Assembly: GCF_024298925.1 (NCBI RefSeq)
Contig: NZ_CP101283.1
Location: forward strand, 2,795,001-2,859,000
Reading direction: 5' to 3'
Length of the DNA stretch: 64,000 nt
Origin: Phenylobacterium sp. LH3H17
GTDB taxonomy: Bacteria; Pseudomonadota; Alphaproteobacteria; Caulobacterales; Caulobacteraceae
Shown here in pieces: positions 13,527 to 49,158 of the stretch (the stretch's first letter is position 1; each line of letters begins with the position of its first letter). Position numbers and translations under genes: made by a program. The notes under the pieces were generated by a model. The model was not told the origin of the DNA. It did no database searches and was given only the letters and a program-made list of their open reading frames with translations.

Positions 13527-14978
13527 TCACGAGCGCGGGTCCTCAAACTTGGGCCAGTAGGGGGAGATATTCTTCTTATACTTGATGTTTTCGAAGTCCG
13601 GCCGAAGTGTTCCGTCGCTCGTCACATAGATAATACGTTCTGAGAGCTGGGAAAACGACGCGAAGAAGTGCTGCGTCGACTTCGCAACGACAATATCCTT
13701 CGATTTTAGATCTATGCCGAACTCGTCATAGACCCGAGTCGTTAGGGTCTGGACGCGCTTCGAGATCAGGACGATGTCGATATTACCGACCGAGATCCAG
13801 GCCGAGTGGCCCACCGGCGACCTTCCTTGTCCAGCCTGGTCGTGGTCGCGGATGAGCCCCCTGACGGTCGCCTGGACGTCCACGGCGTCTCCGGAAGTCG
13901 CGCCGCACTTGCCACCGATCCGCAGGGGCAGCCGCGCGCCAAGGCCCGCGTCAAAGCAGATCTGAACGGCAATCGGATCCCAAACGCAGCCGAAGACCGC
14001 GCTGGCGGCGGTCTGGGCGAGAAGGGGTTTCAGAAGAAACGTGGAATCGCTGGGCGCGCCGCCTCCGGCATTGTCCGCGACATCGGCGAACACCACCGGC
14101 CGAACCGGCGAAGCAGCCGCGAGCTCCAAGGCCTCTTCGATCTCGACATAGCTGTCGCGCGCCTGGTTGCGAAGCTCCCAGATCTCCGCGCCCAGGACGG
14201 CCGCCAGATCCCTGGCTTGAGCGCGGTCTCCGTCCGTCACCACCAGGATGCGCGCGCCGCAATCGGGCACATCGAGCCAGGGATTGCCATGCACGAACGA
14301 CACCGACAGAACGCCGTCGACGCCCTCCAGCGCCGATATCCGGTCCACGAACCCTCGGGTCGGCTGCTGCGGCGTGCGCCACAGGCTGATCATCCGCGTC
14401 TCATGGACCTCGGAGACGGGCGAGACCTCTCCGCGCGCCGCCCGCAGGCACAGATTGTAGAGTTCGACGGCGCGCGGCGCGTGATCGATGTGCGGGTATT
14501 CCTTGAAGGTGATGATCGCCGTGGCGTTGTCGACCATCCTCGGGGTGAGGTGGGCGTGAAGATCGAGTTCAACGCCGATCTTCACGTCGGGACCCACCAG
14601 GGCCCTCAGCTTCTCAAGGGTGTCGCCCTCGCAGTCGTCATAGCCCTCCGCAGCCATTGCGCCGTGCATCAGCAGGAGGATGACGTCCAGGGGGCCGGCC
14701 GCCTTGACCTGTTCGAGCAGCCAATCTCGCAGCCCTTCATAGGCCGAACGCACCGTGTAGCCGCCCGGCTGGGCGATGGCCTGCAGACCTTCAATGAGTT
14801 CGTGCCCCTCGGCTTCGGCCAGCCGCCGCCACTCCCGAGGCGCGCGCAGCTGATTGCTGGGGTTCCTGAGCGTGCCGTCCTCGTACTCGAGAACCTCCTG
14901 CTGGAAACACTGGAGGCTGACCGGAAAGTTCGAGAAGCTGATCGTCTCGACGGCGAGGGAGCCAATGAAGATACGCAT
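13527..14978 (-). CDS. MlrC/microcystinase C-family metallopeptidase
   Basis: 483-residue protein of the M81/MlrC family, named after the zinc peptidase that finishes linear microcystin breakdown. Most members have unknown substrates. Visible family features: N-terminal RIFIGSLAVETISFSNFPV, the GVELDLHAHLT metal-ligand segment, KEYPHIDHAPRA, FADVADNAGGGAPSDSTFLL with Asp and Ser ligand or substrate contacts, and the C-terminal domain with the KSTQHFFASFSQL strand. Start ATG 14978. It lies between an N-acyl-D-amino-acid deacylase (upstream, 74 bp) and an MFS gene (downstream), so D-amino-acid-containing or otherwise protease-resistant peptides are plausible substrates. The family assignment is sure, the substrate is not. 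Confidence 0.9.
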   Translation of the reverse strand: MRIFIGSLAVETISFSNFPVSLQCFQQEVLEYEDGTLRNPSNQLRAPREWRRLAEAEGHELIEGLQAIAQPGGYTVRSAYEGLRDWLLEQVKAAGPLDVILLLMHGAMAAEGYDDCEGDTLEKLRALVGPDVKIGVELDLHAHLTPRMVDNATAIITFKEYPHIDHAPRAVELYNLCLRAARGEVSPVSEVHETRMISLWRTPQQPTRGFVDRISALEGVDGVLSVSFVHGNPWLDVPDCGARILVVTDGDRAQARDLAAVLGAEIWELRNQARDSYVEIEEALELAAASPVRPVVFADVADNAGGGAPSDSTFLLKPLLAQTAASAVFGCVWDPIAVQICFDAGLGARLPLRIGGKCGATSGDAVDVQATVRGLIRDHDQAGQGRSPVGHSAWISVGNIDIVLISKRVQTLTTRVYDEFGIDLKSKDIVVAKSTQHFFASFSQLSERIIYVTSDGTLRPDFENIKYKKNISPYWPKFEDPRS

Positions 14979-18951: not shown

Positions 18952-18959
18952 AGTTCCGG

Positions 18960-20930: not shown

Positions 20931-21883
20931 TGCGGCTGAGCCTGTATTGTTCGGCATGCCCTGGGGCTGACGCCGAAGCGGGATCGGAAACTCTTCGAGA
21001 AGCTCGCGACGCTCTCGTATCCGACGTCGTTGGAGATCTGCAGGATGCTGGTGTCGGAATTGACGATCAGTCGCCGGGCGAGATCGAGCCTCTCGTCGCG
21101 GAAATACTCGTAGACGCCCCGGCCGTAGAGATGCTTGAACGTCGAGGCGAGCTTGCTGCGGTTCAGACCGACGCGGCGCGCAAGGCGGTCCAGCGACGGG
21201 ATCGCCGAGAGATCTTCCAGCATCAAGGCTCGCGCACGCTCAGCCTTGCATAGGTCCGCTTGACGAAATCCCATTGTGGCCGTCGGCGCGCCGGCTGGGA
21301 CGAGCTCGGACAAGGCCAGACAGAGAAGCTCGATCGCCTTGCAGGCGATATAGGCGTGGCGCAGTTCCCGCGCCACCGGCGCGGCGATGATCTCGTCCAC
21401 CACCACGCGCATCTTCGAACTGAATCTGAGGATCGAATGCTCGCCTCCCTGGATCCGTCCTTCACCGCCCGGGACCGCGGCGCAGGTCAGATGCCCGAGG
21501 CTCTCAACGGGGATGGAAACCTCAACGAGGGTGACGGCGTCGGAGGGGGGGTGCTCAGGCCAGGATTTAGCCGTCGAAACGTAGAGGCGGCAGTCCGGGG
21601 CCACGAGCGGCTCCGCGGCGTCCGGCGCCCAGGCCGCGTTCCCTTCCACGAGGCAGGTGAGGACCAGGCTCGCGCATTCGGGAGCCGCGTTCGGCGCGGC
21701 GGCGAGGGGCGCGGACGATGCGCAGACAAGCACGTGGCCGCCGATGGGAAGCGGGATGCGCTCGGCCGACACTTTTCGCCGATTCTGCGACAGGCCGCGG
21801 CCAGGCTTCGTCACCATCTCGGACGTGGAGCCGTCCTCCCGCGCACTAGCCATTCGAGCGCCCCGCCTGGCTGGTGACGGCAT
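20927..21883 (-). CDS. AraC-family transcriptional regulator
   Basis: 318-residue regulator with a C-terminal AraC double helix-turn-helix: IPSLDRLARRVGLNRSKLASTFKHLYG, then SNDVGYESVASFSKSFRSRFGVSPRACR. The N-terminal 200 residues show no family I recognise by eye and presumably sense an effector; VCASSAPLAAAP and a cysteine-rich stretch (CASLVLTCLVEG) lie there. ATG 21883 is used; ATG 21853 is also in frame. It overlaps the serine hydrolase start by 4 bp, so regulator and enzyme form one operon, headed by a copy of the shared 30-bp element at 21997. Confidence 0.9.
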   Translation of the reverse strand: MPSPARRGARMASAREDGSTSEMVTKPGRGLSQNRRKVSAERIPLPIGGHVLVCASSAPLAAAPNAAPECASLVLTCLVEGNAAWAPDAAEPLVAPDCRLYVSTAKSWPEHPPSDAVTLVEVSIPVESLGHLTCAAVPGGEGRIQGGEHSILRFSSKMRVVVDEIIAAPVARELRHAYIACKAIELLCLALSELVPAGAPTATMGFRQADLCKAERARALMLEDLSAIPSLDRLARRVGLNRSKLASTFKHLYGRGVYEYFRDERLDLARRLIVNSDTSILQISNDVGYESVASFSKSFRSRFGVSPRACRTIQAQPQ

Positions 21884-31178: not shown

Positions 31179-31226
31179 GCCGATTTCCACCCAATGCCGC
31201 TTTATTATCCTCAAACACAGCCGATG

Positions 31227-33614: not shown

Positions 33615-33618
33615 CGGT

Positions 33619-34653: not shown

Positions 34654-34707
34654 ATGCCCCCCTCCCGACAGCTGCTCTCGTGGTGACGGGAACCGACTGA
34701 CCAGGAA

Positions 34708-34723
34708 TGTTATATACCTAACA
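34708..34723. promoter_or_regulatory. DeoR-type operator, proximal site
   Basis: The 16-bp sequence is TGTTA, six bases (TATACC), TAACA. The E. coli DeoR operator is TGTTAGAATTCTAACA, with the same half-sites and spacing. The symmetry extends to ATGTTA/TAACAT. It lies 54 bp upstream of the deoC start, where it would overlap the promoter. Confidence 0.75.
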
Positions 34724-34873
34724 TCTATCGACACTTTTCTTACATGCCAGGGTTGGCGTCAACCCCGTATCCCGACTCCAACGGCCGCGGAATCGACCCC
34801 AAATCCCGCCAGATAGGCTCTGCGGCGAGAAAACAGGCCGATCCTTCGCGCGGTCAGGGCCCTCGGCAGAGGT

Positions 34874-35485: not shown

Positions 35486-37102
35486 TCACCGCCGGCTTTG
35501 AACACCCGCAGCCTCGGCGCCCGACATTGGCTGCCTGGCTTGGTTCTGGAGGGCCGTCCTGTCGACCTTGCCGATGGGGAGCAGCGGCAGATCGCGCTTG
35601 ATGACGAAGCGTTTGGGGACCTTGTAGTTGGCGAGCCGTTCCCGACACCAGGCCTCGAGATCCTCGGGCTTCAGGTCGGCGCCTGTCCGCGGGACCACAT
35701 AGGCGACGCCGATCTCTTGCCAGGTGGCGTCCGGGATCGATACGACGGCCGCGAGCGCCACGGCCGCGTGGCTCTCGATCGCGACCTCCACTTCCCGGGG
35801 ATAGACGTTGTACCCACCCGACTTGAACATCTCAGTCAACCGTCCGACGATCCTGTAGCGGCCGTCGGGACGCCTGACACCGAGATCGCCGGTGCGGAAG
35901 AATCCGTCAGGGGTGAAGGCCGCGACCGTCGCGGCCGGGTTTTGCCAGTAGCCGAGCAGGTTGTATTTGGAGCGCGCCTGAATCTCACCCTCCTGGCCGT
36001 CAGCGACCGGGCGACCCGCGTCGTCGGCGAGGCGGACTTCCACACCTGGAAAAGGCTCGCCCACCGTCTCGCTGAGAAGCCCCAGGTCGCAGGTAGGCTC
36101 CAAGACCGTGATCGCGCTCGTCGTTTCGGTCATGCCGTAGTTCGTGGCCAGCCGTGGGGTGATCCCCGCGAGCCGCCGGATCATCTCCTCGGGCATGGCC
36201 GCGCCCTCCCAGATGATGATCTCCACGTGGGACAGGTCGTAACGCCCAAAGGTTGGAACCTGCATCTGGAGGGAGAAGACGCTCGGAACCGACGCCCAGA
36301 CCGTAATCTTTTCACGTTCAATCAGCTCAAGGCTGCTCTGGGCGTCGAAGTGCTCCATGAAATGGAGTTCGCCGCCGCCAGCCAGCGTGGGCATCGAAAT
36401 GTCGACGATCGATCCAACGTGATTGATCGGAAGGAAATTGAGGGATCGATAGGTCGCGACAGGCCAGATGCGGTTCTGCTCGACACTGAAGGACGAGATG
36501 CCCTCGTGATGTAGGAGCGCGCCCTTGGGTTTGCCGGTGGAGCCGGACGTATAGACAATCAGGCAGGGATCTCTCCCACCGCAGGCCAACCTTGCGCCGG
36601 CAAGGGTCGCGTCCGGAACATCCTCGCCCTCCAACAGGAAGCTCGCGAGGCTCACCGCGCCCGGCGCTGTAGGGTCGCCGTCGAACACGACCACCCGCTC
36701 CAGTCCCGCCGTCGCAGCGAGCGCGGCGATCTCTTCGCCATAGGCCCGGTCGCCGATGGTCGTGCGGCTCAGGAGGACCTTGGGCTTCGCATCCGAAACC
36801 GCGTGGCGCAACTCCTCGAGGCGGTACTTGGGATTGAGGCCAAGCCAGATGCCGCCAATGGACGCGGTGGCGAGGAAAGCGACGATGAACTGGGGATGGG
36901 GGGTCTGCAGCGTGGCGACGCGATCACCCTTGGCGACCCCCGCGTTCAACAGAGACCGGGCAAGCCTGTCAACCTGCTCGGCCAGATCCGAATAGGTCAG
37001 GCGATCTCCGCCGAGGACGAGAGCGACCGCCGAAGGGGTTCGGCCGGCGATCCAGTCGATATAGTCACTGACACGCGGAAGGACGGGCGGGGACAGACTC
37101 AC
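35486..37102 (-). CDS. Class I adenylate-forming ligase (acyl-CoA synthetase)
   Basis: 538-residue AMP-binding ligase. Motifs: P-loop LIVYTSGSTGKPKGALLHHEG, NYGMTETTSAI, RTGDLGVRRPDGRYRIVGRLTEMFKSGGYNVYPREVE and the C-terminal lysine in LLPIGKVDRTALQ. The GTG at 37102 overlaps the stop of the transporter gene (GTGA), and the protein begins in family register shortly after. It activates a carboxylic acid to a CoA ester; substrate class cannot be assigned. It is the third gene of the MaoC, transporter, ligase operon controlled by the TetR operator at 38922. Confidence 0.92.
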   Translation of the reverse strand: MSLSPPVLPRVSDYIDWIAGRTPSAVALVLGGDRLTYSDLAEQVDRLARSLLNAGVAKGDRVATLQTPHPQFIVAFLATASIGGIWLGLNPKYRLEELRHAVSDAKPKVLLSRTTIGDRAYGEEIAALAATAGLERVVVFDGDPTAPGAVSLASFLLEGEDVPDATLAGARLACGGRDPCLIVYTSGSTGKPKGALLHHEGISSFSVEQNRIWPVATYRSLNFLPINHVGSIVDISMPTLAGGGELHFMEHFDAQSSLELIEREKITVWASVPSVFSLQMQVPTFGRYDLSHVEIIIWEGAAMPEEMIRRLAGITPRLATNYGMTETTSAITVLEPTCDLGLLSETVGEPFPGVEVRLADDAGRPVADGQEGEIQARSKYNLLGYWQNPAATVAAFTPDGFFRTGDLGVRRPDGRYRIVGRLTEMFKSGGYNVYPREVEVAIESHAAVALAAVVSIPDATWQEIGVAYVVPRTGADLKPEDLEAWCRERLANYKVPKRFVIKRDLPLLPIGKVDRTALQNQARQPMSGAEAAGVQSRR

Positions 37103-38394
37103 GTTGCGGGCTCCAAGGCGCGGCGTGACAGGCCAGCCGAACGAAGGTTGTGGAGAGAGACCAGGCACAGAGCGCCTGGCGCGACGGTGAGGAAGATCAC
37201 CACCGCGACGGTCATGTGACCTCCTGCCGAGGCCAGAGCCAGGCCGGTCAGGGCCGGGCCAAATGCAAGGCCGAGCTTCTCCCCAGAGGTCCAGACCCCC
37301 GTGAAGGTGGCCTCGGCCTGAGCGCCGGCATCTCCGTGGATCAGGTGCGCCACCAGCGTGAACGGCAGCACTTGGAGGCCGCCGAAGGGCAAGCCGATGA
37401 GGGCGAACGCCACCAGCTCGCCCCCCCAGGGAGCTCCGGCGAGCGCCCCGACGCCCAGCAGTGCGGTCACCAGACCGAAGGCGAGCGTCGCGCCCACATA
37501 GGCTCTGGCCTCTCCGATGCGGCGGGCGAGCGCCGTCCAGAACGGCACCGAGACGATCGTGGCGAGCAACATCGCTCCCATGGCCAGGCCGGTGTCCCCC
37601 TCTGGCCGGGAGAAAATGGCGACAACCAGATATGGCGCAGCCGACGTCACAAGACCCACGGCGGTGAGCTGGAGCACATAGGCCGCCAGCAGATTGCGGA
37701 AACGGCTGTTCTGCAGCGCCGCCTTCATCTGCGCCGTCAGGCCAGGACGCCGCACCGAGACGGAAGGCCGCTCCCTTGGCTGATCACGTCCAGCCATCAT
37801 CAGGAAGGGCGGCGCCATCGCCAGCCCACATGCCGCGGCTATGACCAGCGCCATGACGGCGTAGCCCGCCCGTCCGCCTCCACCGGCCTCCACGATCAGA
37901 GGCGCGGCGCTTGCGCCGGCCAGCACGCCCACCATGGCCACAACGATCCGCCAGGCGACGAGCCTGGCTCGGCTGGCCTCGTCCTCTCCGATCTCCGCGG
38001 GTATCGCGATGTAGGGCACGGCGAAGATCGAGTAGAGCGCGGCCAAGGCGAAATAGCAGCACCCCACCCATGCGACCTCCCCCCATCCTGGCAACACCGG
38101 CGGGGTGAAGAGGGCGACGAAGGCCACCACGACGCCGATAGCGCCCACGGCCAGGAATGGCCGCCGGCGGCCCAGGGGCGAAACGCTGCCGTCGGACCAG
38201 GATCCGACCAGAGGATCCCAGAAGATCGCCCAGGCCTTGGGAATGAAGACAATCGCCGCGGCCCATCCGGGCGGGATCTTGAGCGTCTCCGTACAGAAGT
38301 AGAGGAGGAGCACCGTAGGGACCGTGGAAAACACGCCCGTGCCGAACGAGCCGGACGCATAGGCGGCCGAAGCGGCGGCTCCGATCGCTTTCAC
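37099..38394 (-). CDS. MFS_2/GPH-type cation symporter
   Basis: 431-residue, 12-helix transporter of the glycoside-pentoside-hexuronide:cation symporter branch. Recognisable segments are WAIFWDPLVGSWSDGSVSPLGRRRPFLAVGA (helices 2-3) and FAVPYIAIPAEIGEDEASRARLVAWR. The charged loop after helix 2 and the RxRF/R-rich loop after helix 6 fit. GTG 38394 overlaps the stop of the MaoC gene (GTGA), so the two are coupled. Beyond sugars, members of this clade in Alphaproteobacteria also sit in steroid or aromatic operons. It imports the inner-membrane substrate of the ligase operon. Confidence 0.9.
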   Translation of the reverse strand: MKAIGAAASAAYASGSFGTGVFSTVPTVLLLYFCTETLKIPPGWAAAIVFIPKAWAIFWDPLVGSWSDGSVSPLGRRRPFLAVGAIGVVVAFVALFTPPVLPGWGEVAWVGCCYFALAALYSIFAVPYIAIPAEIGEDEASRARLVAWRIVVAMVGVLAGASAAPLIVEAGGGGRAGYAVMALVIAAACGLAMAPPFLMMAGRDQPRERPSVSVRRPGLTAQMKAALQNSRFRNLLAAYVLQLTAVGLVTSAAPYLVVAIFSRPEGDTGLAMGAMLLATIVSVPFWTALARRIGEARAYVGATLAFGLVTALLGVGALAGAPWGGELVAFALIGLPFGGLQVLPFTLVAHLIHGDAGAQAEATFTGVWTSGEKLGLAFGPALTGLALASAGGHMTVAVVIFLTVAPGALCLVSLHNLRSAGLSRRALEPAT

Positions 38395-38903
38395 GACCTG
38401 GCCTCGGCCCCGGCGACGGGCTCCGGAGGCATCCAGATTGAGAGCCAGTCAGCCACAAGCGCCGGGCGGTCGCCGCCCTCGATCTCGATGGTGCATCCGA
38501 ACGTCGTGATCCAGCGCTCCTTGTCGTCCTGCCGCCGGCTGAGCGTGGTGAAGCGGCCTCGGATGCGGGCGCCCGCCGGCACGGGAGAGACCAGTCTGAG
38601 GCGATCGAACCCATAGTTGAGATAATGCCCCATGGTCGATGGATCGCGATGGGAACTGGTGTGCATGGCGTCGAAAAGCAGATGGGTCAGCAGGGACACG
38701 GTGAGGAACCCGAAGGCGATAGCGCCTCCATAGGGACCGTTGGCGGCCGCCCAGTGCGGATCGATGTGCATCGGGTCGGGGTCGCGGGTCACCGCCCCAA
38801 ACGCATCGATCATCTCCTGGGTGACCACGAGCCAATCCGAAGTCCCGATATCGTCCCCCGCCTCGAGGGAGGAGAGCACATCCTGCGTGACGGCCTCAGT
38901 CAT
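38391..38903 (-). CDS. MaoC-like (R)-specific hydratase
   Basis: 170-residue hot-dog-fold hydratase. The hydratase motif is DPDPMHIDPHWAAANGPYGGAIAFGFLTVSLL, with the catalytic Asp/His of the D-x-H loop. A second half with YLNYGFDRLRLVSPVPAGARI matches the family's substrate face. It hydrates 2-enoyl-CoAs. I prefer ATG 38903 over 38921: the TetR operator and its probable promoter end within 5 bp of the earlier ATG, while GGAGAG precedes the later one. It heads the operon MaoC, transporter, ligase. Confidence 0.88.
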   Translation of the reverse strand: MTEAVTQDVLSSLEAGDDIGTSDWLVVTQEMIDAFGAVTRDPDPMHIDPHWAAANGPYGGAIAFGFLTVSLLTHLLFDAMHTSSHRDPSTMGHYLNYGFDRLRLVSPVPAGARIRGRFTTLSRRQDDKERWITTFGCTIEIEGGDRPALVADWLSIWMPPEPVAGAEARS

Positions 38904-38921
38904 CCGATCTAGTCTCTCCAT

Positions 38922-38947
38922 TCTATGATCTTGAGCCCAACCTCAAC
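38922..38947. promoter_or_regulatory. TetR-type operator A (MaoC operon / tetR divergent region)
   Basis: 26-bp site with core ATGATCTTGAGCCCAACC followed by TCA. It shares the layout of operators B (43921) and C (47544): TGAT, TTGAGC, then CTCA at identical spacing. A tandem 16-bp repeat, TTGAGCCTGACCTCAA, follows at 38948-38963. The two copies lie between the MaoC operon (minus) and the tetR gene (plus), so both promoters may be repressed. Confidence 0.75.
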
Positions 38948-39002
38948 TTGAGCCTGACCTCAATTTTTGGGTTGCGTCAAGAACGATCGTCAGAGGGACC
39001 TC

Positions 39003-39767
39003 GTGAGCGCACTCGAACCGTCATTCGTCGAACATCTGAAGCATCAGTTCGCCACGGCGCCGCCCGCCAAGCGCGGACTTCGGACGCGCCAGCGGCTGGT
39101 GATCGCTGCCGCCCAGGTCCTGGAGCAGAAGGGCTATCACGCCCTCAGGGTGACCGATGTGTCCGACGCGGCCGGCGTCGCAGAGGCTTCGTTCTACGTC
39201 TACTTCCGCGACAAGAAGGACATAACGATCCAGGTGCTCACCTTGCTGCTGGACGAGTATTTCGGCGTGGAATCACAGGACGCGGAACACGCCTCGGTCT
39301 TCGGCAAGATCCAATTGGCCAACCGGGGATGGATCGCCATGTGCCGCGCGAACGCTGGCCTCATGCGCTGCATTCTGCAGGTGGGCGATGACATTCCGGA
39401 GTTCTATCGACTCGCTCAGAGGGCCAATCGCACCTGGTACGAGCGGGTGGCGCAGAGCGTCAGCCGCCATAGGCCCGAGCAGGGAATCAATCCGGCGGCA
39501 CTTCACCTGGCCTATATGCTCGGCGCGATGGCTGATGAGATCGTACGCAAGCTCATCATCTATCCCGACCCGGACTACCTCGCCCTGCTCGAACAGACGG
39601 GTATGAACGACGAGGCGGTCGCAGACGCCATGAGCCTGGTGTGGATGCATGTCCTTTACCCGGGCGTCCCGATCGGAGAGGCGTCGCTCCACGACGCGGC
39701 CGTCGAGCTGGCCCACACCGCGCTCCCCCGACTGTTGTTGACGCGAGAGGCGGCCGCCGGCGGCTGA
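39003..39767 (+). CDS. TetR-family transcriptional regulator
   Basis: 254-residue TetR repressor. The N-terminal helix-turn-helix is RTRQRLVIAAAQVLEQKGYHALRVTDVSDAAGVAEASFYVYFRDKKDITIQVL. The ligand domain is about 190 residues and carries CRANAGLMRCILQVGDD and YMLGAMADEIVRKLI. GTG 39003 with AGAGG 7 bases upstream is chosen over the TTG at 38967, which lies within operator DNA. It is divergent from the MaoC operon, with two tandem operator copies between. The same sequence occurs before the TonB receptor and the fused oxidoreductase, so this protein probably controls 35.5-49.2 kb. The effector would be a CoA ester or an aromatic or lipophilic compound. Confidence 0.9.
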   Translation: MSALEPSFVEHLKHQFATAPPAKRGLRTRQRLVIAAAQVLEQKGYHALRVTDVSDAAGVAEASFYVYFRDKKDITIQVLTLLLDEYFGVESQDAEHASVFGKIQLANRGWIAMCRANAGLMRCILQVGDDIPEFYRLAQRANRTWYERVAQSVSRHRPEQGINPAALHLAYMLGAMADEIVRKLIIYPDPDYLALLEQTGMNDEAVADAMSLVWMHVLYPGVPIGEASLHDAAVELAHTALPRLLLTREAAAGG

Positions 39768-39890
39768 GGCCTGCGGCGTGTCCCTGACGGCCCGCCCTAC
39801 TGCTGACGCCGTCCAGGTCGGTCCACGCCACCCCGTATCGAGGACAGGCCGGCGCGGGCCGTCATGATACCGGAATGGGTCCAGTCCCAG

Positions 39891-41717
39891 TCAGTCGCGC
39901 CAGGGTCGCGTGGTCAGGGCCAGTCCGCTGCCCTCGCCGCCCCCGAACCTCAAGGTGAACCGCTCCGCGCCGGCCTTGGGATAACGGCGGAAGGTGTCGG
40001 CGTCGGCGCCGGCGATGGCGAGCCGCAACCGGTGCCCCTTCCTGACGAGGGCCGCGACCGGGAACATCGCGAACTCCACGACCGCTGTTTCCCCAGGGTT
40101 CATGGGCTGTGCGTCGGCCCGAGCGTAACTGTGGGGGGCGGGCCCCTGATCATATGGGAGGCTGGCGGGGTCCGCGGGCCGCCGGTGGACGGCGCGGATC
40201 TGGCCCTCGGTCAGGTAGCTTACACGCCCCTCCGGAGAGACGTCCTCCAGGTAGGCGAAGAACACGGGATCGTCGGTCTCGGTGGCCACGCTCAGGCGCA
40301 CCACCGGCGTTCCGGCCACCTCGACGTCCGCGGTCATGGGCTTGGTGTCGAACACGATGAGCTTGTGGTCCTCGGCCCTCCGATCGGCGTAGGCCGGCGG
40401 GGTCCCGAACTGTGTCGACCAACGGGTCTGCTTTCCGGTCGTGGCGGTGAAGTCGACCTCCCGCGAGACCGATCCGACCGCGGCGGCGCCTTCATGGAGC
40501 GCGCCATCGGCGCCAAGGGCCAGGAATTGGGGGGCGACGCCCTCGGGCGGCCACGCGGTCGTCTGCTTGAACCGTCCGGCGCCCATTACGTAGTAGTTGA
40601 TCTTCCGCTCGACCTTCACGCCGGCTCGGAGTCGCTCGGCAAACTCGAGGTTGATCTTGAACTGCTCCTCTGGAGAGGGCGTTGGCTCGACCGCACCGGG
40701 CCGCAGGGGATCAGCTCCCTTGCGATGGGTGTGGTCGTTGGCGGTGATCCAAACCTCCATGGAGACCTCGGGCGCGCTGCGGAAGCGGGCCAGGGCCGCC
40801 TCGGCCGTTCCGCCGTCGACCCAGGACCCCCAGTACTGGACCGGTTTGCGCTGGAGTCGGATATCGTCGATGGCCGAGGCCGGCGAGAGGTCGAAGAGCG
40901 CAAATCCGTTGCGCCCCTTATCGTCGCGGAACTCGGCCTGGTAATAGTCCTCCGGACCCCAGTGGAGACGGCCAGCAATCGCTTGACGCAATAAGCGGAA
41001 GTCCACGTCGCCGTCGACCGGCTGAAGCGTCGGAAACAGCTTGGGGCAATCTTCGAGCCGCACGGCGCAATCCAGTGTCTTGCCCTCACCGTCCCTGCCC
41101 AGGTCGATATTGCGAGCCTCCCGGCCCCATCCGTTCAGCATGAAGTCGTTCGACACCCCGCCCGGCATGAACAGGTGCAGGTAGACGTCGAAGTCCGTCT
41201 CGCGCGCTATCGCCCCCAGCAGCGGGGTGGGGCGGCTGGTGGCCCAGTCGGCCGTATCGGCCATGTAGGAGACGCCGGCGGCGATCACCTGGCCGTTCGA
41301 CCACGGCAGCAGACGCAGGTGATCGACGAGCTCGTCCATGTCACGGACCTCGTCGGGCCCGATCTCGGTGTTCCTCGCGCCGAACGAGGCCGTGGAGCCG
41401 CGAGTGTCTACCACCGCCACGACGTAACCCGCCTCGCGCCAGCGCTGATAGTCCCGCGCCTGCGAGTAGGCGAAATGGATGGCGCGACCGTAGCGGGTCT
41501 GGATGAGGATCGCAGGCGCCTTCGCGCCAGGGACCTGTCCGCCAGGATAGTACAGACTGACCGCCAGGCGCACGCCATCGCGCATGGGCAGGTAGTAGGA
41601 ACTGTCACTCCAGCCGAACGGGCGCTCGGGCGGGGCGGCCTCGCAGCCTCCCCCCGCCAGCGCGCCGAGCAAGGCCGCCGCGGCCATGGCCGCGATCCTG
41701 GCGGATCCGACACTCAC
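39891..41717 (-). CDS. CocE/NonD-family alpha/beta hydrolase (S15-like)
   Basis: 608-residue hydrolase of the X-Pro dipeptidyl-peptidase/cocaine-esterase family. An N-terminal Ala/Leu signal segment (IAAMAAAALLGALAGGGCE) suggests export. The catalytic domain has AVVDTRGSTASFG and GVSYMADT with nucleophile S150 in the GxSY motif; the Asp/His partners are expected at about 360-410. The C-terminal jelly-roll domain (from about 420) has AAVGSVSREVDFT and ends GGGEGSGLALTTRP. GTG 41717 lies 1 bp after the TonB receptor stop; ATG 41687 is possible. It would hydrolyse an ester or peptide delivered by the receptor in the same operon. Confidence 0.87.
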   Translation of the reverse strand: MSVGSARIAAMAAAALLGALAGGGCEAAPPERPFGWSDSSYYLPMRDGVRLAVSLYYPGGQVPGAKAPAILIQTRYGRAIHFAYSQARDYQRWREAGYVVAVVDTRGSTASFGARNTEIGPDEVRDMDELVDHLRLLPWSNGQVIAAGVSYMADTADWATSRPTPLLGAIARETDFDVYLHLFMPGGVSNDFMLNGWGREARNIDLGRDGEGKTLDCAVRLEDCPKLFPTLQPVDGDVDFRLLRQAIAGRLHWGPEDYYQAEFRDDKGRNGFALFDLSPASAIDDIRLQRKPVQYWGSWVDGGTAEAALARFRSAPEVSMEVWITANDHTHRKGADPLRPGAVEPTPSPEEQFKINLEFAERLRAGVKVERKINYYVMGAGRFKQTTAWPPEGVAPQFLALGADGALHEGAAAVGSVSREVDFTATTGKQTRWSTQFGTPPAYADRRAEDHKLIVFDTKPMTADVEVAGTPVVRLSVATETDDPVFFAYLEDVSPEGRVSYLTEGQIRAVHRRPADPASLPYDQGPAPHSYARADAQPMNPGETAVVEFAMFPVAALVRKGHRLRLAIAGADADTFRRYPKAGAERFTLRFGGGEGSGLALTTRPWRD

Positions 41718-41718
41718 C

Positions 41719-43905
41719 TCAGTAGCTCAGCTTCAACTCGAGCCCGAATGTCCTCGGCTCGTTGAGCGCGATGAACTTCTGGGCGACGAAGCCGAGTCCC
41801 GAGAGGTCGAAGAGCCGCTGCTTCACCACCTCATCAGCGAGGTTCTTGCCCCAGAGGGATAGGCGGATCCGGCCATCCGGGTCCTGCCAGCTGATCCGAG
41901 CGTCGACGAGACCATAGGGTTTCACCTTACCGTCCTGTTGATTGTCGGGCGTGAGGTACGAGGTTCCTCGGCCGATGTACTCTCCATAGAAAGTCAGCTC
42001 CCCATAGCGAGTCTCCAAGCGGTATTCCGCGTTGAGGTCGAACGTATAGCTCGGCGACTGGGGGATGCGGCGGAGCGGCTGGCCGGAGGGAAGGACGCCC
42101 TCGTCGTACTCAGCCTCTTGGATAGCGAGGCTCGCCCCGAGCGTCCACGGCGGTGCGGGTCGCGCCTGCACCTCCAGCTCCAGGCCCTGGCTGTGAGCCG
42201 CACCGGCGTTCAGGATGACCGGGTCGAAGATCGGCGTCGCGGGATTGTCCGCCGTGATCTGGATATCCGTCCACTCCATGCGGTAGAGGGCGGCGTTCAG
42301 GGTCACCCGACGATCGAGCAACTCAGATTTCAGGCCCGCCTCGTAGTTCCAGAGCCGCTCGGGATTGAAGGAGATTCCGTTTGCGTCGCCCAAGGCGTCG
42401 TTGAATCCTCCACTCTTGAAGCCCTTGCTCGCCGTCGCATAGGCGAGGACCGCCGGGGTGAAGCGATAGCGAAGGTTGAAGCTGGGCGTCACCTCGGACC
42501 AGCTGTCAGCGGCCGTGATGGCCGCGTCGCCGCCCAGGAGATCGATTGGGTCGGTCTGGATATAGTCGATGGACTTCTTATCGCGGGTGTAGCGGGCCCC
42601 AGCGGTCACATCCACACGATCATTGATCTTCCAGGTGCCGCTGGCGAAGGCGGCAAGACTCCGGGTGGCGAGCTTGCCGTTCGAGCCGACCTGCAATCCG
42701 GCCAGGGAGGGGGCTCCGAGCAGATTTGCCAGGCCTCCCCCGATCTCCACGAAGCTGAGATTTCTCGAGCTCTGTCGGAAATAGTAGAGCCCCGAGATCC
42801 AATTCACCGAGCCTGTGCTGAACTCCGCCCGCAATTCGTCGGACCATCTCCAGACGCTTTCGGGATCGCCGTCATAGAGGATGCTGAGGGGCGAGCGGTC
42901 AGTATCGGCGCGCGAAAAGTAGTCGTGGCGCCGGTAGGAGATGATGTTGGTGAGCCGCACGCCGGCGAGGCTGGTGTGGAAGTTGACCGCCGCCCCACCG
43001 CTCTTGAGGCGCTCCTCGTTCTGCTGATCTCCCTGGATCCGATAGTCGTACGGGTGGGTGTTTAGCGGCAGGCCGGAGGCGATGAGAAGTTGTGGCAGCA
43101 GGGCCGTGTCGTCGTAGCTCAGCGTCTCGTAGCCGATGGTTTCCTGATCCACCTTTCGGTAGTCGGCGGTGATCAGGAGCTCGGTGCGCTCGCCCATGTC
43201 GAAGAGGAGTTGGCCTCGGCTCGACCAGTTGTCGACCGAGTTCACACGACGGCCGAGGGTGGTGTTGAGCGTGGTTCCGTCGCGTTGCTCACGGGCCACG
43301 GAGAACTTCGCAAATAGGCGATCAGCCAGGATGGGTCCGCTGATCGACGCTCCCGCGCGGCGATAGTCGTGGTTCCCGGCCGCGAGCGTTCCCGAAGCCT
43401 TGAACGAGGCGGAAGGACGTTCGGTGGCGATGTTGATCACGCCGCCGAGCGTGTTCCGGCCGAAAAGCGTCCCCTGCGGGCCCCGCAGCACCTCCACTCG
43501 GGCGATGTCGTAAAGGTCGAGGTTCGCTCCAGCACCCTGCCCTACGAAGACCTCATCGACATAGTAGCCTACCGCCGGGTCGGAGCCGGCCGAGCCGGCG
43601 CTGCCGATGATGCCCCGCAGCGAGGTCGGCGAGAGCTTCAGGTCGCCGAAGTCGCCGTAGAGCATGCCCGGGGTCCGCAGCGCCACATCGCCGATGTCCT
43701 GGATGCCCTGCCGCTCGATGGCCGCGGCGGTGAAGGCGGTGACGGAGACCGGCGTCTCCTGGAGCCGCTCCTCGCGCCGCTGGGCGGTGACGATCACTTC
43801 TTCCAGCGCCACGCCGCTCTTGTCGTCAACGGTTTGGGCCGAGGCCGAACCGGCGCTCAGCAGCGCCGCTACGGCCGCCGCCCCCAGGTACACGCTCCGC
43901 GTCAT
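41719..43905 (-). CDS. TonB-dependent outer-membrane receptor
   Basis: 728-residue receptor. The signal peptide ends AGSASAQ; then comes the TonB-box-like VALEEVIVTAQRREE. The plug domain shows TPVSVTAFTAAAIE, VEVLRGPQGTLFGRNTLGGVINIAT (the family hallmark) and YVDEVFVGQG. The barrel ends with the aromatic EPRTFGLELKLSY. The ATG follows GGGAGGG. This type (FecA/catecholate-like barrel) is abundant in Sphingomonadales and Caulobacterales and often imports plant aromatics or peptides. It is translated just before CocE with a 1-bp gap and is headed by operator B, so it belongs to the TetR regulon. Confidence 0.95.
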   Translation of the reverse strand: MTRSVYLGAAAVAALLSAGSASAQTVDDKSGVALEEVIVTAQRREERLQETPVSVTAFTAAAIERQGIQDIGDVALRTPGMLYGDFGDLKLSPTSLRGIIGSAGSAGSDPAVGYYVDEVFVGQGAGANLDLYDIARVEVLRGPQGTLFGRNTLGGVINIATERPSASFKASGTLAAGNHDYRRAGASISGPILADRLFAKFSVAREQRDGTTLNTTLGRRVNSVDNWSSRGQLLFDMGERTELLITADYRKVDQETIGYETLSYDDTALLPQLLIASGLPLNTHPYDYRIQGDQQNEERLKSGGAAVNFHTSLAGVRLTNIISYRRHDYFSRADTDRSPLSILYDGDPESVWRWSDELRAEFSTGSVNWISGLYYFRQSSRNLSFVEIGGGLANLLGAPSLAGLQVGSNGKLATRSLAAFASGTWKINDRVDVTAGARYTRDKKSIDYIQTDPIDLLGGDAAITAADSWSEVTPSFNLRYRFTPAVLAYATASKGFKSGGFNDALGDANGISFNPERLWNYEAGLKSELLDRRVTLNAALYRMEWTDIQITADNPATPIFDPVILNAGAAHSQGLELEVQARPAPPWTLGASLAIQEAEYDEGVLPSGQPLRRIPQSPSYTFDLNAEYRLETRYGELTFYGEYIGRGTSYLTPDNQQDGKVKPYGLVDARISWQDPDGRIRLSLWGKNLADEVVKQRLFDLSGLGFVAQKFIALNEPRTFGLELKLSY

Positions 43906-43920
43906 CTAATCCCTCCCGAT

Positions 43921-43946
43921 ATTATGATATTGAGCTCAATCTCATC
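43921..43946. promoter_or_regulatory. TetR-type operator B (TonB receptor/CocE operon)
   Basis: Same internal spacing as operators A and C: ATGATATTGAGCTCAATC, then TCA. The inner TTGAGCTCAA is a perfect palindrome. A further TTGAGG lies 4 bases beyond it. The site is 16 bp upstream of the receptor ATG. Confidence 0.75.
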
Positions 43947-46900
43947 TTTGAGGTTGGTTGCGCGGCTTGTCAAGAACACGGTGAATCTGCCGTTTCGATG
44001 CGGGCGAGGCGTGAGGCGCCACGGCCACGTTCCCGGGCTGTGGAGCTATGGCGGCCGGTTCCGCGGCCTCCCCCCTCAGCCGCGCCAGGGCGACGTCCCG
44101 TCGCCGCAACGCCCCGACCAGGCGCTCGGCCTTGACGTGTCCAAACCCCCGGATGAGGTCAGGATAGCAGGCGACCTCCAGGACCAGGTCGCGGGTTCCT
44201 GGATTGAGCAATTCCAGGGCGGCCTCCACGGACGCCCGGTACTGGCCGACGAGCCGCCGCTCGAGGCGTCGCTCGGCCAACCCGCCGAAGGGATCGAACG
44301 GCGTGCCCCGCAGGCCCTTGAACTTCGCCAGCAGCCTGAAGACGGGCATCACCCATCCGCCCAACGTCACTTTCAGCGGCAGCCCAGAGGCGCGGTCGCG
44401 CGGTGCGAAGAGGGGCGGCGAAAGATGGAAGCTGAGTTTCAGCTCCCCCTCGAACTCGGCGCGGAGGCGGGTGGAGAAGCTCGGATCGGCCAAGAGTCGG
44501 GCGACCTCGTATTCGTCCTTATAGGCCATGAGCTTGGCCAACCCGCGGGCGACCGCTTCGGTGATCGCCTCGCCACCGGGGTCACGCGCCGTCACCAAGG
44601 AACCTACGCGCCGGACAAAGACCTCGTAGTCCGCGGCGTATCGATCGTGCTGATAGGCGGTCAGGCGCTTGGCGCGATCGGCGATGAGGGCCTCAAGGCC
44701 GGCTGGTTCGCGTTCGGCCGGCGGTGCGCGAAGCCCGGCGATCCTTGTCGGGTCGAGCACCGCCAGTCGCCCCGTGCGGAACGCCGAGAGATTCATGTCC
44801 ACCGCCGCGGCGTTGAGCCTCACGGCGGCCTCAATGGACGCCGCTTTCAGGGGGATGGCGCCCAGCTGATAGGCGAAGCCTACCATGAACATGTTGGCCG
44901 CCAGGCTGTCGCCGAAGAGGTCGGCGGCCGTCCCGGCGGCGTCGACGCGATGGACTCGCGATCCTTCCCCCACCGCGCAGGCGACGGCGCTCTCCAGGGT
45001 CTGACCATCGAGCACGAAATCCGGGTCGAGCTGGAAGGCCGCGGTCGGCGTCAGACGCGTGTTCACCACCGCAATCGCCGTACCTGGGCGCAAGGTGGCC
45101 AGGGCCTCGCGATGTGCGCCCGCCACAAGGTCGCAGGCCAGGAGAAGGTCTGTCTCGCCGTCCCCAAGTCGCGCCGGCCCCAGGAACATGCCTGGGAGCC
45201 CGATGCGCAGGTGGCTGTGGACCGCTCCACCCTTCTGGGCAAGTCCGGTCATGTTGTAGGTCGAGGCGATCTTGCCCTCCAGGTGCGCCGCCATGGCGAG
45301 CACCGATCCCACCGTGATGACGCCGCTGCCGCCGATGCCCGTGACGAGGATGGCGCAGCGGTCGCCCGCGGGGACGCGTCCGGGTTCGGGAAGGCGCGCG
45401 GGATCGACCGCCGCAAGGCGAGGCGCCCGGGCCCTGGGGCGCCCGCCGGTGACGCTCACGAAGGAGGGGCAGAAACCGTCGGCGCAACTGTAGTCCTGGT
45501 TGCAGCCTGACTGGTCGATCTCCCGCTTTCGCCCCAGGGCCGTGGGGATGGGGCGCAGGCTCACGCAGTTCGAGACAGCCGAACAGTCGCCGCAGTTTTC
45601 GCAAACGGCCTCGTTGATGAACAGCCGGCGCGGGGCCTGCGACTCGAGCCCCCGCTTTCGGCGTCGCCGCTTCTCGGTCGCGCAGACCTGGCTGAAGATC
45701 ACCACGGTGACGCCGGGCGTCACGCGCAAGGCCTGCTGCACGGCTTCGAGGTCGGCCCGCGGCCGGAGGTCCACGCCGGCCGGGATCGCGCGGCGATCCA
45801 GGCTCGCCATGTCGTCGCTCAGCACCACGCAGCGGCGGGCCCCTTCGGCCAGCACCTGGCGGGCGATGTCGGCGACGGAGAGGCCGCCTTCGACGGCCTG
45901 GCCGCCGGTCATGGCGACCGCGTCATTGAACAGAATCTTATAGGTGAGGTTGACCCCGGCGTTGACGGCGGCGCGAACAGCCAGCAGGCCGGAGTGCGAG
46001 TAGGTCCCATCACCGAGGTTCTGGAAGATATGCGGCCGCTTCGAGAAGCGCGAGGCGCCGATCCAATTGGCGCCCTCCCCGCCCATCTGGACGGCGGGAA
46101 GCGTCTGGCGGTTCATCCAGATCGCCATCCCGTGACATCCGATTCCGCTAAGCGCGAGGCTGCCCTCGGGCACCTTGGTCGAGCGATTGTGGGGGCAGCC
46201 TGAGCAGAAGTAGGGAAGCCGCGCTGGCAACAGCGCGCTCGATCCCGTGGCTGCGGCCGGTGCGCGTGCGGCCGCCCGCGCTGTGTCGGCGTCGAGACAT
46301 CCCAGGCCGGCCAGTCGGGCGAGGAGGACTTCGGCGATCTGGGCGGGGTCGAGTTGCTCGTCGGCCGGCAAGAGGGGCGCGCCGGTCTCGTCGAACTTTC
46401 CGACCAGGCGGGGGGGATTGGCGGTGTTGATCAGGGCGGCTGCCGCCTGAACCTCGAGGAAGGCCCGCTTCTCCTCGACGACCAGCACCTCACGGCAACC
46501 GTGCGCGGCCGCCCGCAGCCCCTCCGCCTCCAGGGGCCAGATCATCCCCACCTTGTAGACGCGCAGGCCGAGCTTCGCGGCGCGCGCCTCATCGACGCCG
46601 AGCCTGGCCAGCGCCTGCATGACGTCCACATAGGCCTTACCGGCCGTGACGACGCAGAGCGCGGCCTCGGCGCTGTCGACGGCCAGGCGATCTAACCGGT
46701 TGGCCCTGGCGAAGGCCTTGGCCAACGGCAGCTTGTGGCGGGTGATCAACACCTCATCGCGCTGCGGCCCGAAGACGCCCCGGAAGTGCACCCCTTCGGC
46801 CGGCATGTCGGACATGACTGGCGCCGTCACGGTGATCCTCGCGGCGTCGAGATCCACCGTGCCCGCGCACTCCGCGGTCTCATTCACGAGTTTCAGACCC

Positions 46901-47502
46901 ACCCAAAGCCCCGAGGCCCGCGAGAGGGCCCACCCCAGCTGGCCGAAGGTCAGGATCTCCTCGACGGACGCCGGATACAGGACCGGGATCGAGCAGGTCG
47001 ACAGGGCAGGCTCGCTCTGGTGCGCCACGGTGGATGACTTGCCGGGATGGTCGTCGCCAAAGACGACCAGGACGCCGCCATTGGGCGAAACACCGGCCAT
47101 GTTGCCGTGCTTGAGGGCGTCACAGGACCGGTCCACGCCCGGCCCCTTGGCGTACCAGAGGGCGAAGACCCCATCCACAGTCGGGTCGAACTGAGAGATC
47201 TGCTGGGTCCCGAGGACCGCGGTGACGGCCAGGTCCTCATTCAGACCGGGGTCCACCACCACATCTGGCAGGAGGCCGACCGCCTTGATGCGGAGAAGTT
47301 CCGCGTCCAGCCCGCCGAGGGGCGATCCGCGGTAGCCGCTCACATAGCCGGCGGTCCGCAAGCCCGCCCGGCGATCTTCCTCCCCCCGAAGCATCAGCAA
47401 CCGGCCGAGCGCCTGGACCCCGCTCATGAGCACGCGCCCCGCGCGTTGTTCATAGGGATCGCTCAGGCTGACCTGGTTCATGGCCGCGTCGCTGGTCAGC
47501 AC
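43942..47502 (-). CDS. Fused 2-oxoacid (indolepyruvate-type):ferredoxin oxidoreductase, paralogue 1
   Basis: 1186-residue single-chain 2-oxoacid:ferredoxin oxidoreductase, the three-domain form that oxidises aryl- or branched 2-oxoacids to acyl-CoA. The N-terminal part holds the alpha/pyrimidine domain (GYRGSPLGGLDAELL, HGNMAGVSPNGGVLVVFGDDHPGKSSTV). The TPP core includes FCSGCPHNRSTKVPEGS and IGCHGMAIWM. Fe-S clusters are suggested by CENCGDCSAVSNC and CNQDYSCADGFCPSF. The C-terminal gamma domain begins AILVTGIGGSGVITVGSV. GTG 47502 follows GGAGGG with correct spacing; ATG 47481 is the alternative. It is headed by operator C. Ferredoxin partner not seen in the window. Confidence 0.92.
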   Translation of the reverse strand: MLTSDAAMNQVSLSDPYEQRAGRVLMSGVQALGRLLMLRGEEDRRAGLRTAGYVSGYRGSPLGGLDAELLRIKAVGLLPDVVVDPGLNEDLAVTAVLGTQQISQFDPTVDGVFALWYAKGPGVDRSCDALKHGNMAGVSPNGGVLVVFGDDHPGKSSTVAHQSEPALSTCSIPVLYPASVEEILTFGQLGWALSRASGLWVGLKLVNETAECAGTVDLDAARITVTAPVMSDMPAEGVHFRGVFGPQRDEVLITRHKLPLAKAFARANRLDRLAVDSAEAALCVVTAGKAYVDVMQALARLGVDEARAAKLGLRVYKVGMIWPLEAEGLRAAAHGCREVLVVEEKRAFLEVQAAAALINTANPPRLVGKFDETGAPLLPADEQLDPAQIAEVLLARLAGLGCLDADTARAAARAPAAATGSSALLPARLPYFCSGCPHNRSTKVPEGSLALSGIGCHGMAIWMNRQTLPAVQMGGEGANWIGASRFSKRPHIFQNLGDGTYSHSGLLAVRAAVNAGVNLTYKILFNDAVAMTGGQAVEGGLSVADIARQVLAEGARRCVVLSDDMASLDRRAIPAGVDLRPRADLEAVQQALRVTPGVTVVIFSQVCATEKRRRRKRGLESQAPRRLFINEAVCENCGDCSAVSNCVSLRPIPTALGRKREIDQSGCNQDYSCADGFCPSFVSVTGGRPRARAPRLAAVDPARLPEPGRVPAGDRCAILVTGIGGSGVITVGSVLAMAAHLEGKIASTYNMTGLAQKGGAVHSHLRIGLPGMFLGPARLGDGETDLLLACDLVAGAHREALATLRPGTAIAVVNTRLTPTAAFQLDPDFVLDGQTLESAVACAVGEGSRVHRVDAAGTAADLFGDSLAANMFMVGFAYQLGAIPLKAASIEAAVRLNAAAVDMNLSAFRTGRLAVLDPTRIAGLRAPPAEREPAGLEALIADRAKRLTAYQHDRYAADYEVFVRRVGSLVTARDPGGEAITEAVARGLAKLMAYKDEYEVARLLADPSFSTRLRAEFEGELKLSFHLSPPLFAPRDRASGLPLKVTLGGWVMPVFRLLAKFKGLRGTPFDPFGGLAERRLERRLVGQYRASVEAALELLNPGTRDLVLEVACYPDLIRGFGHVKAERLVGALRRRDVALARLRGEAAEPAAIAPQPGNVAVAPHASPASKRQIHRVLDKPRNQPQR

Positions 47503-47543
47503 ACCATTCCCTCCGAATCGAACTTCCCCGCCATGGGAACATT

Positions 47544-47569
47544 ATATTGATATTGAGCTCACACTCAGT
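47544..47569. promoter_or_regulatory. TetR-type operator C (oxidoreductase / M20 divergent region)
   Basis: Matches A and B: TTGATATTGAGCTCACAC then TCA, at identical spacing. A second dyad ACTCAG, seven bases, CTGAGT spans 47563-47581. The site lies between the oxidoreductase (GTG 47502, minus) and the M20 gene (GTG 47629, plus), so it may control both. Confidence 0.7.
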
Positions 47570-47628
47570 TTTAGTCTGAGTCAAGGCGACGGCGGTTTGC
47601 GCCAACTATCAATGGGAAGGTTTGCGAA

Positions 47629-49158
47629 GTGAGCATTGATCTCGATCTGCGGGGTATACGGCGGCGGGGGCTGCTGCAGGGCGCCCTCGCCGGCTCGGCG
47701 CTGCTGGGCGGGCGCGGACGGGCCTGGGCGGCGACGCCGGACCTCAAACCGGTCCATGATCAGGTCCTGCTCCACACCGATGAGTCGATCCGCCGGCTGC
47801 AGACCTGGATCCGGCAACCCTCTATCGCGGCCCAGAGCATCGGCATCGAGGCGGGTTGCGCATTGACCATCGAGCTGCTGCGGGAGGCGGGCTTCCAGTC
47901 GGTGACCCGGCATGAGACCAGCGGCCATCCGGGCATCTTCGCCACCTTGGACGCGGGCGCCCCGCGCACGGTCGGCATCTACTTCATGTACGACGTGAAA
48001 CAGGTGGACGCCCGCGAGTGGACGTCGCCGCCCTTTGAGGCGGTGATCGTCGACAAGCCTGGTCTGGGCAAGGCCGTGGTGGGTCGTGGCGCGCTCGACA
48101 TGAAGGGCCCCCAGGCGACCTTCCTGGCGGCGGTTCACGCCATCCGCAGCGCGGGACATCGGATGCCCGTCAATCTCGTGCTGGTGGCGGAGGGCGAGGA
48201 GGAAATCGGGTCCCCCAATCTTGCCCAGCTTGTACGCCGCCCTGAGGTGCTCGCGGGCCTCGGGCGGTGCGGCGAGGTCTGGATGCCGTTCGCCTCGCAG
48301 GACCAGGAGGGCGCCGTCGAGATCGATCTCGGGGCAAAGGGGATCATCGAGCTCGAGCTCGTGGTCTCGGGCGAGCGGTGGGGTCGTGGGCCTCGGGCGG
48401 ATGTCTTCTCGGGCCTGCAGGCCGCCATCGACAGTCCCGCCTGGCGGCTGGTGCAGGCGCTCAGCACCCTCGTGTCCCCGGACGGCGCCGATCCGGCCAT
48501 CGATGGTCTGTTTGAGGACGTCCGTCCGCTGTCTCCGCGACAGCGGGCGATGATCGCCGCCGCCGCCGATCGGCAGGACGAAGACCTGCTCAAGGCGCAA
48601 TTCGGAGTCCGACACTGGATCCACGATCTTCCGTTCCAGGAGGCCCTGGAGCGGTTGGCGTCGGCGCCCACTGTCAACATCGAAGGCCTGGTGGCGGGCT
48701 ACACCGGCCCGGGCGGCAAAACGATCCTTCCGGCGCGAGCCGTGGCCAAGATGGATCTGCGGCTGGTGCCCGACATGACCGCGAGCGGGACCTTGGCCAA
48801 GGTGAAGGCGCACCTCGCCAGGCGCGGCTATGCCGACATCGAGGTCAATATGACCGGCGGATACGATCCTACCGAGACAGCAGAGAGCGCGTTGCTCATC
48901 CGGGCCGCACAGGCGGTCTATCAGCGCCGCGGCCTCACCCCACACTTGCAGCCAAGGAGCGCGGGGTCCTGGCCGGGTTGCATTTTCACGGGCCCGCCGC
49001 TGAACAAGCCCGCCGGCCATTTTGGGCTCGGCCATGGAGGCGGACCGCACGCGGCTGACGAGTTCTATCTGCTGGAGAGCACGAAGCCGAGGATCGCGGG
49101 CATGGCGGAGGCGACCTCGGCCTATGTGGAATTCCTCTATCAGCTTGCGGCGGGCTGA
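47629..49158 (+). CDS. Exported M20-family metallopeptidase with altered first Zn ligand
   Basis: 509-residue M20 (ArgE/DapE/CPG2) family protein. It begins at GTG 47629 with GGAAGG 8 bases upstream. IRRRGLLQGALAGSALLGG gives a twin-arginine-like signal, so export is expected. The M20 fold is clear: GRGALDMKGPQ with the bridging Asp157, LVAEGEEEIGSPN with the catalytic Glu pair, and GLGHGGGPHAADEFY with the last His ligand. The first zinc motif, normally YGHYDV, is YFMYDV with M120 in place of His, so one metal site may be altered or the enzyme is a divergent one. It is divergent from the oxidoreductase gene under operator C. Confidence 0.88.
   Translation: MSIDLDLRGIRRRGLLQGALAGSALLGGRGRAWAATPDLKPVHDQVLLHTDESIRRLQTWIRQPSIAAQSIGIEAGCALTIELLREAGFQSVTRHETSGHPGIFATLDAGAPRTVGIYFMYDVKQVDAREWTSPPFEAVIVDKPGLGKAVVGRGALDMKGPQATFLAAVHAIRSAGHRMPVNLVLVAEGEEEIGSPNLAQLVRRPEVLAGLGRCGEVWMPFASQDQEGAVEIDLGAKGIIELELVVSGERWGRGPRADVFSGLQAAIDSPAWRLVQALSTLVSPDGADPAIDGLFEDVRPLSPRQRAMIAAAADRQDEDLLKAQFGVRHWIHDLPFQEALERLASAPTVNIEGLVAGYTGPGGKTILPARAVAKMDLRLVPDMTASGTLAKVKAHLARRGYADIEVNMTGGYDPTETAESALLIRAAQAVYQRRGLTPHLQPRSAGSWPGCIFTGPPLNKPAGHFGLGHGGGPHAADEFYLLESTKPRIAGMAEATSAYVEFLYQLAAG

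Follow-up and report, generated by a model that had tools for sequence, protein, structure and literature searches.

Caenibius tardaugens belongs to the order Sphingomonadales. The edc oestrogen cluster of this species, as set out in two reports, comprises the TetR repressor EdcR, a TonB receptor, MaoC hydratases, a P450 and a fused indolepyruvate:ferredoxin-oxidoreductase-family enzyme (IOR; PMC8700777, PMC7793797). The locus described here lies in a 64,000-nucleotide stretch of Phenylobacterium sp. LH3H17 DNA that was analysed as a whole (the window), and it resembles edc as portrayed there in that a palindrome is placed at the putative -10 box of several promoters in one catabolic cluster with a TonB receptor, MaoC and a fused IOR (PMC8700777, PMC7793797). 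It differs in its operator, since the one proposed for EdcR there, TnnCnnTACnAnTnGTAnnGnnA, does not contain TTGAG-N6-CTCAA on inspection by eye, and in its enzymes: edc is described there with a P450 and a ring dioxygenase, whereas the present system carries hydrolases of families S15, M81, S58 and S12.

A second likeness is to the mlr microcystin cluster, as M81 MlrC-like and S12 hydrolases occur both in the window and in its relatives. We take the S12 hydrolase to have an MlrB-like fold. The window M81 peptidase aligns with microcystinase C (7ylq) over its full length at E = 3e-86. Inspected by eye, it preserves the MlrC zinc ligands E39, D167, H169 and H191, but the catalytic/binding residue E70 of MlrC (PMC9982164) aligns, counted by eye, with a glutamine; microcystin itself is a less probable substrate because E70 is not kept. 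Parts of the DgcN–DgcA D-glutamate route (NCBIfam names) are found in related loci: DgcA scores above the cut-off in the type-1 locus L112 (417.5 versus 400), and in the type-2 locus L113 DgcN falls just below it (456 versus 480) and DgcA below it (328 versus 400), while the window's genome has no DgcN match. Among solved structures, the DNA-binding domain of FadR, a fatty-acid-type TetR repressor (3whb), is one of the nearest to the window TetR, but the likeness stops after the DNA-binding part. A literature search, with most subscription journals outside its scope, found no account of this TetR operator or cluster.

Gene content of the cluster

The initial annotation had read the region as MaoC–transporter–ligase, TonB receptor–CocE and fused-oxidoreductase units with a divergent M20 gene and a TetR gene beside the first upstream site. 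Domain and homologue matches bear out the gene assignments, and tandem operators A1 and A2 do adjoin tetR at 38967 (Table 1). The TetR gene starts at TTG as listed or perhaps at GTG 39003, which by eye lies behind a better ribosome site. The N-terminal helix-turn-helix scores 45.6 bits against TetR_N (cut-off 24), no Pfam family covers the ligand domain and a single-sequence structure model has a mean pLDDT of 42. Matches of the ligase to steroid and fatty acyl-CoA synthetases fall below the cut-off.

Table 1. Operators, TTGAC boxes and genes in the window
Feature	Position	Strand	Basis
Operator A1, TTGAGCCCAACCTCAA	38931..38946	.	Pattern and core scans
Operator A2, TTGAGCCTGACCTCAA, tandem copy of A1	38948..38963	.	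Core scan
Operator B, TTGAGCTCAATCTCAT, across the oxidoreductase gene stop codon	43930..43945	.	Pattern and core scans
Operator C, TTGAGCTCACACTCAG	47553..47568	.	Pattern scan
TTGAC (-35-like) box, MaoC operon; starts 17 bp before A2	38976..38980	-	
TTGAC box, TonB receptor–CocE operon; starts 28 bp before B	43969..43973	-	
TTGAC box, oxidoreductase gene; starts 16 bp before C	47580..47584	-	
TetR-family regulator	38967..39767	+	Pfam TetR_N 6e-12; orthologues
MaoC-like hydratase (start perhaps 38903)	38391..38921	-	Domain match
MFS_2 (GPH-type) transporter	37099..38394	-	Domain and homologue matches
AMP-forming acyl-CoA ligase	35486..37168	-	Domain and homologue matches
TonB-dependent receptor (TBDR)	41719..43905	-	Domain match
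S15 CocE/NonD hydrolase	39891..41717	-	Domain and homologue matches
Fused IOR (start perhaps 47481)	43942..47502	-	Domain and homologue matches
M20 peptidase, divergent from site C	47629..49158	+	Domain match
M81 (microcystinase-C-like) peptidase; neighbouring cluster	13527..14978	-	No operator; regulon member in relatives
S12 beta-lactamase-fold hydrolase; neighbouring cluster	18960..20957	-	No operator

Operator motif and its specificity

The motif that had been noticed upstream of the three operons was captured as the 21-bp pattern WTGATMTTGAGCYYAMNCTCA, which is present with no mismatches at site A (38925–38945), site B (43924–43944) and site C (47547–47567). The pattern was derived from these same sites, so that their matching is by construction and the informative part is the absence of others. 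With up to three mismatches allowed, the window gives four matches where 0.04 would be expected; the fourth is site B read on the opposite strand, and none of 100 shuffles gives four. Over the whole genome (4,270,790 bases in two contigs; 4.27 Mb) the same threshold returns six matches and a control pattern none; besides the four of the window, the six comprise two weak three-mismatch places, both inside predicted genes. The search thus yields few matches, not dozens of unrelated sites. An identity of at least 17 of the 21 bases had been claimed for all sites; this holds for A–B and B–C (18 each) but not for A–C (16).

A 16-bp palindrome, WTGAG-N6-CTCAW, forms the core of the motif and reads TTGAG-N6-CTCAA in A1 and A2, TTGAG-N6-CTCAT in B and TTGAG-N6-CTCAG in C, the last being one mismatch away. 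Alone, this core occurs at 11 places in the genome (reversed control, one), of which three are A1, A2 and B; seven of the eight places outside the cluster are in predicted genes and one is undecided. A shared promoter element, or plain chance, would account for repeats that sit at the expected -10 region, but would hardly leave the genome without another close match outside predicted genes, produce so many more matches in the window than expected, or conserve the operators at these genes in further families of the order; we regard this explanation as very improbable.

Position of the operators relative to TTGAC boxes

Site A consists of two tandem copies with a 17-bp step between the MaoC and tetR genes, site B spans the end of the oxidoreductase gene upstream of the TonB receptor and site C separates the oxidoreductase and M20 genes. 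No TTGAC was found within 60 bp before the sites in the tetR or M20 direction; the boxes are on the minus strand only, and all three sites therefore fit the leftward genes. Site C accordingly fits the oxidoreductase gene. Membership of the M20 gene in the regulon is not supported, as an M20 match (1e-15) is also absent from all 28 related loci described below. Where 1.1 promoters and 3.4 terminator-like sites would be expected, an E. coli-type sigma-70 consensus scan returned none of the former and two of the latter.

We compared TTGAC distances at 21 operator sites placed beforehand from the related loci, leaving out L119, L039, L040 and the L118 TBDR site, where the motif has drifted. TTGAC starts 16–17 bp upstream of all 12 MaoC/IOR operators examined and 28–36 bp upstream of eight of the nine TBDR operators, the ninth having it at 13 bp. 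The TTGAC box would be a -35 element; at 16–17 bp from it the operator lies on the presumed -10/start region, the position of a repressor. Some TetR-family proteins are activators, and the present regulator could bind the operator to activate instead, but its location downstream of TTGAC at all 21 sites makes this quite unlikely.

Distribution of the regulator and related loci

Among 198 other family genomes, two hold close relatives of the window TetR, each in two copies (46–55% identity). The 38 other congeners in this sample have none (best E = 1e-15), which marks the regulator as an accessory trait. At 1e-30, and with the window's own genome included, TetR matches are present in 22 of 398 sampled genomes of the order, ten of 385 in the class sample and two of 398 in the phylum sample. 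We collected 28 related loci, each spanning at most 20 kb about such a TetR gene, and designated as type 1 those with a TetR of at least 40% identity, MaoC, the transporter and either the ligase or the TonB receptor. Eleven loci qualify (L037, L039, L107–L112, L118, L119 and L123). Partial loci hold CocE (L040), MaoC (L120, L121, L125) or MaoC, ligase and transporter with a TetR of 33% identity (L126). Among the 22 TetR-positive genomes of the order, 11 (own included) have type 1 and four more have only type 2 (see below).

More distant TetRs are found in L104–L106 (same class, other orders), L120–L122 and L124–L126; no clear operator was seen among the best-scoring places of these loci, nor by eye in the upstream regions of L120–L122 and L126, and all were left out of the operator, shared-word, TTGAC and type-2 counts. 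Two other sets were set aside: a TetR paralogue of 36% identity around genome position 3424000, which has no neighbour among the five top-scoring places of its 20-kb locus, and 26 loci from a contig search with TetR alone, which come from Clostridia and kin and match in the DNA-binding domain only. In L123 (G1073) the TetR and CocE matches are in two pieces with interrupted frames, through decay or assembly error.

Conservation of the operator in type-1 loci

A matrix built from the four window sites only was applied to 150-bp upstream regions, each compared with 200 dinucleotide shuffles; TBDR matches below 40% identity were dropped before counting, and L039 was therefore left out of the shared-word comparison. 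At p <= 0.05 the matrix detects the operator before MaoC in eight of 11 loci (Fisher 1e-8), TBDR in four of ten (1e-5), MFS in five of 11 (in several cases the gene is divergent from MaoC), TetR in four of 11 and IOR in one of two, in contrast to CocE, an operon-internal gene (one of nine). Near-copies among the loci (L109–L111, L108/L123 and L113/L115) mean that these counts overstate independence. Ligase regions, meant as internal, reach the threshold in four of nine loci (one via a shared divergent region), and the matrix alone is thus not fully specific; in L039 its matches differ from the word picked by eye.

A matrix-free comparison was made of the best 18-mer shared by the MaoC and TBDR upstream regions. 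This word beats all 25 shuffles in six of ten loci, is weak in L111, L108 and L123 (equalled by one, two and three of 25 shuffles, respectively) and is within chance in L118 (22 of 25 as good). For the control pair MaoC–CocE at least six shuffles equal the best word in eight of nine loci, with L118 the exception (one of 25); for TBDR–ligase at least 16 do so in all loci but L107 (none), where one site is common to the ligase and the oxidoreductase. The sites of L107 lie before TBDR (4809), in the MaoC/TetR gap (9595) and in the ligase/oxidoreductase gap (13355); these are the window's three units again.

These results bear on whether the motif belongs to some other regulator, such as the AraC-type protein encoded at 20927, with the TetR gene a bystander. 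An AraC gene does lie in the neighbouring cluster and another adjoins the cluster in L110. Against this, motif and TetR orthologue co-occur in related loci, two tandem copies stand directly at tetR and, in L038, a TetR gene outside the cluster carries a strong copy. A 16-bp palindrome also suits a TetR dimer. Assignment to another regulator is therefore unlikely, and we consider the TetR encoded at 38967 to be, with good probability, the local repressor that acts on the 16-bp palindrome at three promoters of catabolic genes.

In L119, L039 and L040 the operator has drifted to CTGAYRTCAG-like words, apparently along with the TetR sequence, which offers a chance to study operator–repressor co-evolution.

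Type-2 loci and peptidase islands

The TetRs of six further loci (L103 and L113–L117; type 2) form one clade with a support of 100/100. Around the L113 TetR are S12, S58, M81, DgcN-/DgcA-like, SDR and PhyH genes, TonB receptors and a TRAP transporter, most of which are matched in the other five loci. With the same window-site matrix and 100 shuffles each, p <= 0.05 was reached upstream of S58 in six of six loci, M81 in five of six (one shared divergent region), the first TBDR in five of five (the sixth query, L117, matched the other receptor), the second TBDR in four of six and one S12 gene (S12a) in three of five (the L117 query matched another S12). None reached it for DgcN (zero of six), DgcA (zero of five) or SDR, PhyH, the second S12 gene (S12b) and DctM (zero of six each). 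L118 has both modules by one TetR, and M55 too.

Two genomes, G1132 and G1073, carry operators at three places about 24 kb to the left of their type-1 TetR: one ends 2 bp short of the M81 ATG, one precedes a ligase with 60% identity to that of the window, and one separates a TonB receptor from S12. S58, M55, a P450 and arginase-family and mandelate-racemase-family genes are further members of the G1132 island. A pattern made from the G1073 sites occurs at nine, eight and one distinct places in G1073, G1132 and G1041 (control one, zero and zero), of which five, four and one, respectively, are within islands. In relatives, then, the operator also stands upstream of M81 (microcystinase-C-like), S58, S12 and TonB-receptor genes, and the islands in addition hold M55, DgcN/DgcA or arginase-family genes. 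In L145 (G1073) the M81 frame is broken near 5700, through decay or assembly error.

The M81/S12 cluster of the window

An M81/S12/DAO cluster lies 12–27 kb to the left of tetR in the window, and the genome-wide motif scans place no operator at it. Its genes (11571–26761) encode AsnC, MFS, M81, an amidohydrolase, HTH-cupin, a DAO-type oxidase, S12, AraC, an acyl-CoA ligase and a TonB receptor, and it has the appearance of another unit for D-peptide catabolism, lacking the TetR operator. M81 is found about 24 kb from TetR in the same arrangement in the window's genome (G000), G1132 and G1073, with the window protein only 34–35% identical to the other two. Across the order, 34 of 398 genomes have M81: 11 of 22 with the TetR versus 23 of 376 without it (Fisher 1e-7, two order samples being treated as the same and relatedness ignored). 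Among the TetR-positive genomes with type 1 only, M81 is present in four of eight (p = 0.001).

The genome has two M81 genes, the other lying 18 kb to the left of the window. In this left flank (L130; G000 C1:2775001-2795000) the second M81 is 55% identical to that of the window, a further fused IOR (47%) occupies 15060–18500 and the best matrix score is 14.7, at 19410.

Proposed regulon and substrate

The case for one TetR operator shared by three transcription units in a local catabolic regulon is strong. The initial proposal of a single regulon for uptake, hydrolysis and CoA activation of one substrate class stands as regards motif specificity and conservation with TetR; M20 membership finds no support, and the reading of the substrate is altered by M81, S58 and S12 in relatives. 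As we envisage it, TetR would bind WTGAG-N6-CTCAW over the -10/start region of the three promoters and silence the MaoC–MFS–acyl-CoA ligase unit (probably with tetR itself, from the same region), the TonB receptor–CocE hydrolase unit and the fused 2-oxoacid oxidoreductase, until the substrate or its CoA thioester, bound to the C-terminal domain, caused release. The TonB receptor would import the compound through the outer membrane, S15 (in relatives also M81, S58, S12 and M55) would cut it and the MFS transporter would carry it inward; the ligase would then activate the acyl part with CoA, MaoC would hydrate it and the fused oxidoreductase would convert 2-oxo acids from amino acids to acyl-CoA.

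The presence of M81, S58 and S12 under the operator in relatives changes the likely substrate, which may be a D-amino-acid-containing, acylated peptide-like natural product, a weaker suggestion drawn from gene neighbours in relatives. A steroid or aromatic substrate has in its favour the TetR repressor, TonB receptor, MaoC hydratases and fused IOR shared with edc, whose descriptions also include a P450 such as that of the G1132 island (PMC8700777, PMC7793797), as well as the below-cut-off likeness of the window ligase to steroid and fatty acyl-CoA synthetases. However, the window cluster has an S15 hydrolase and no ring dioxygenase among its genes, M81, S58 and S12 genes of relatives stand behind the operator in islands that also carry M55, DgcN/DgcA or arginase-family genes, and the EdcR operator, in the form quoted above, differs; this substrate is accordingly rather unlikely. 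Returning to the peptide-like substrate, we tentatively suggest that a TetR subfamily of one order, with one conserved operator, might direct the modular mineralisation of D-amino-acid-containing, acylated non-ribosomal peptides (cyanopeptide-like): after uptake through the outer membrane, M81, S58, S12 and M55 would cleave D-/iso-peptide bonds, D-Glu and guanidino residues would be processed, and the rest would undergo beta-oxidation and 2-oxoacid oxidation. The window strain would have its acyl/2-oxoacid module under the operator and the adjoining M81 module under other control.

Local TetR regulons are of a familiar kind, but a clear operator, a fixed TTGAC distance and conservation in several families of the order give a direct handle on this catabolic programme; the operator could serve to find the genes of the pathway and as the basis of a sensor to reveal its substrate. 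Should the peptide reading be true, it would point to environmental bacteria and enzymes that dismantle D-amino-acid peptides such as cyanopeptides.

Other genes of the window

A second fused indolepyruvate-oxidoreductase gene, without the operator, is located at 53486–56962. At 27538–34734, genes for a GH116 glycosidase, a PfkB kinase, an aldehyde dehydrogenase and DeoC stand in a row and form a separate sugar-catabolic unit.
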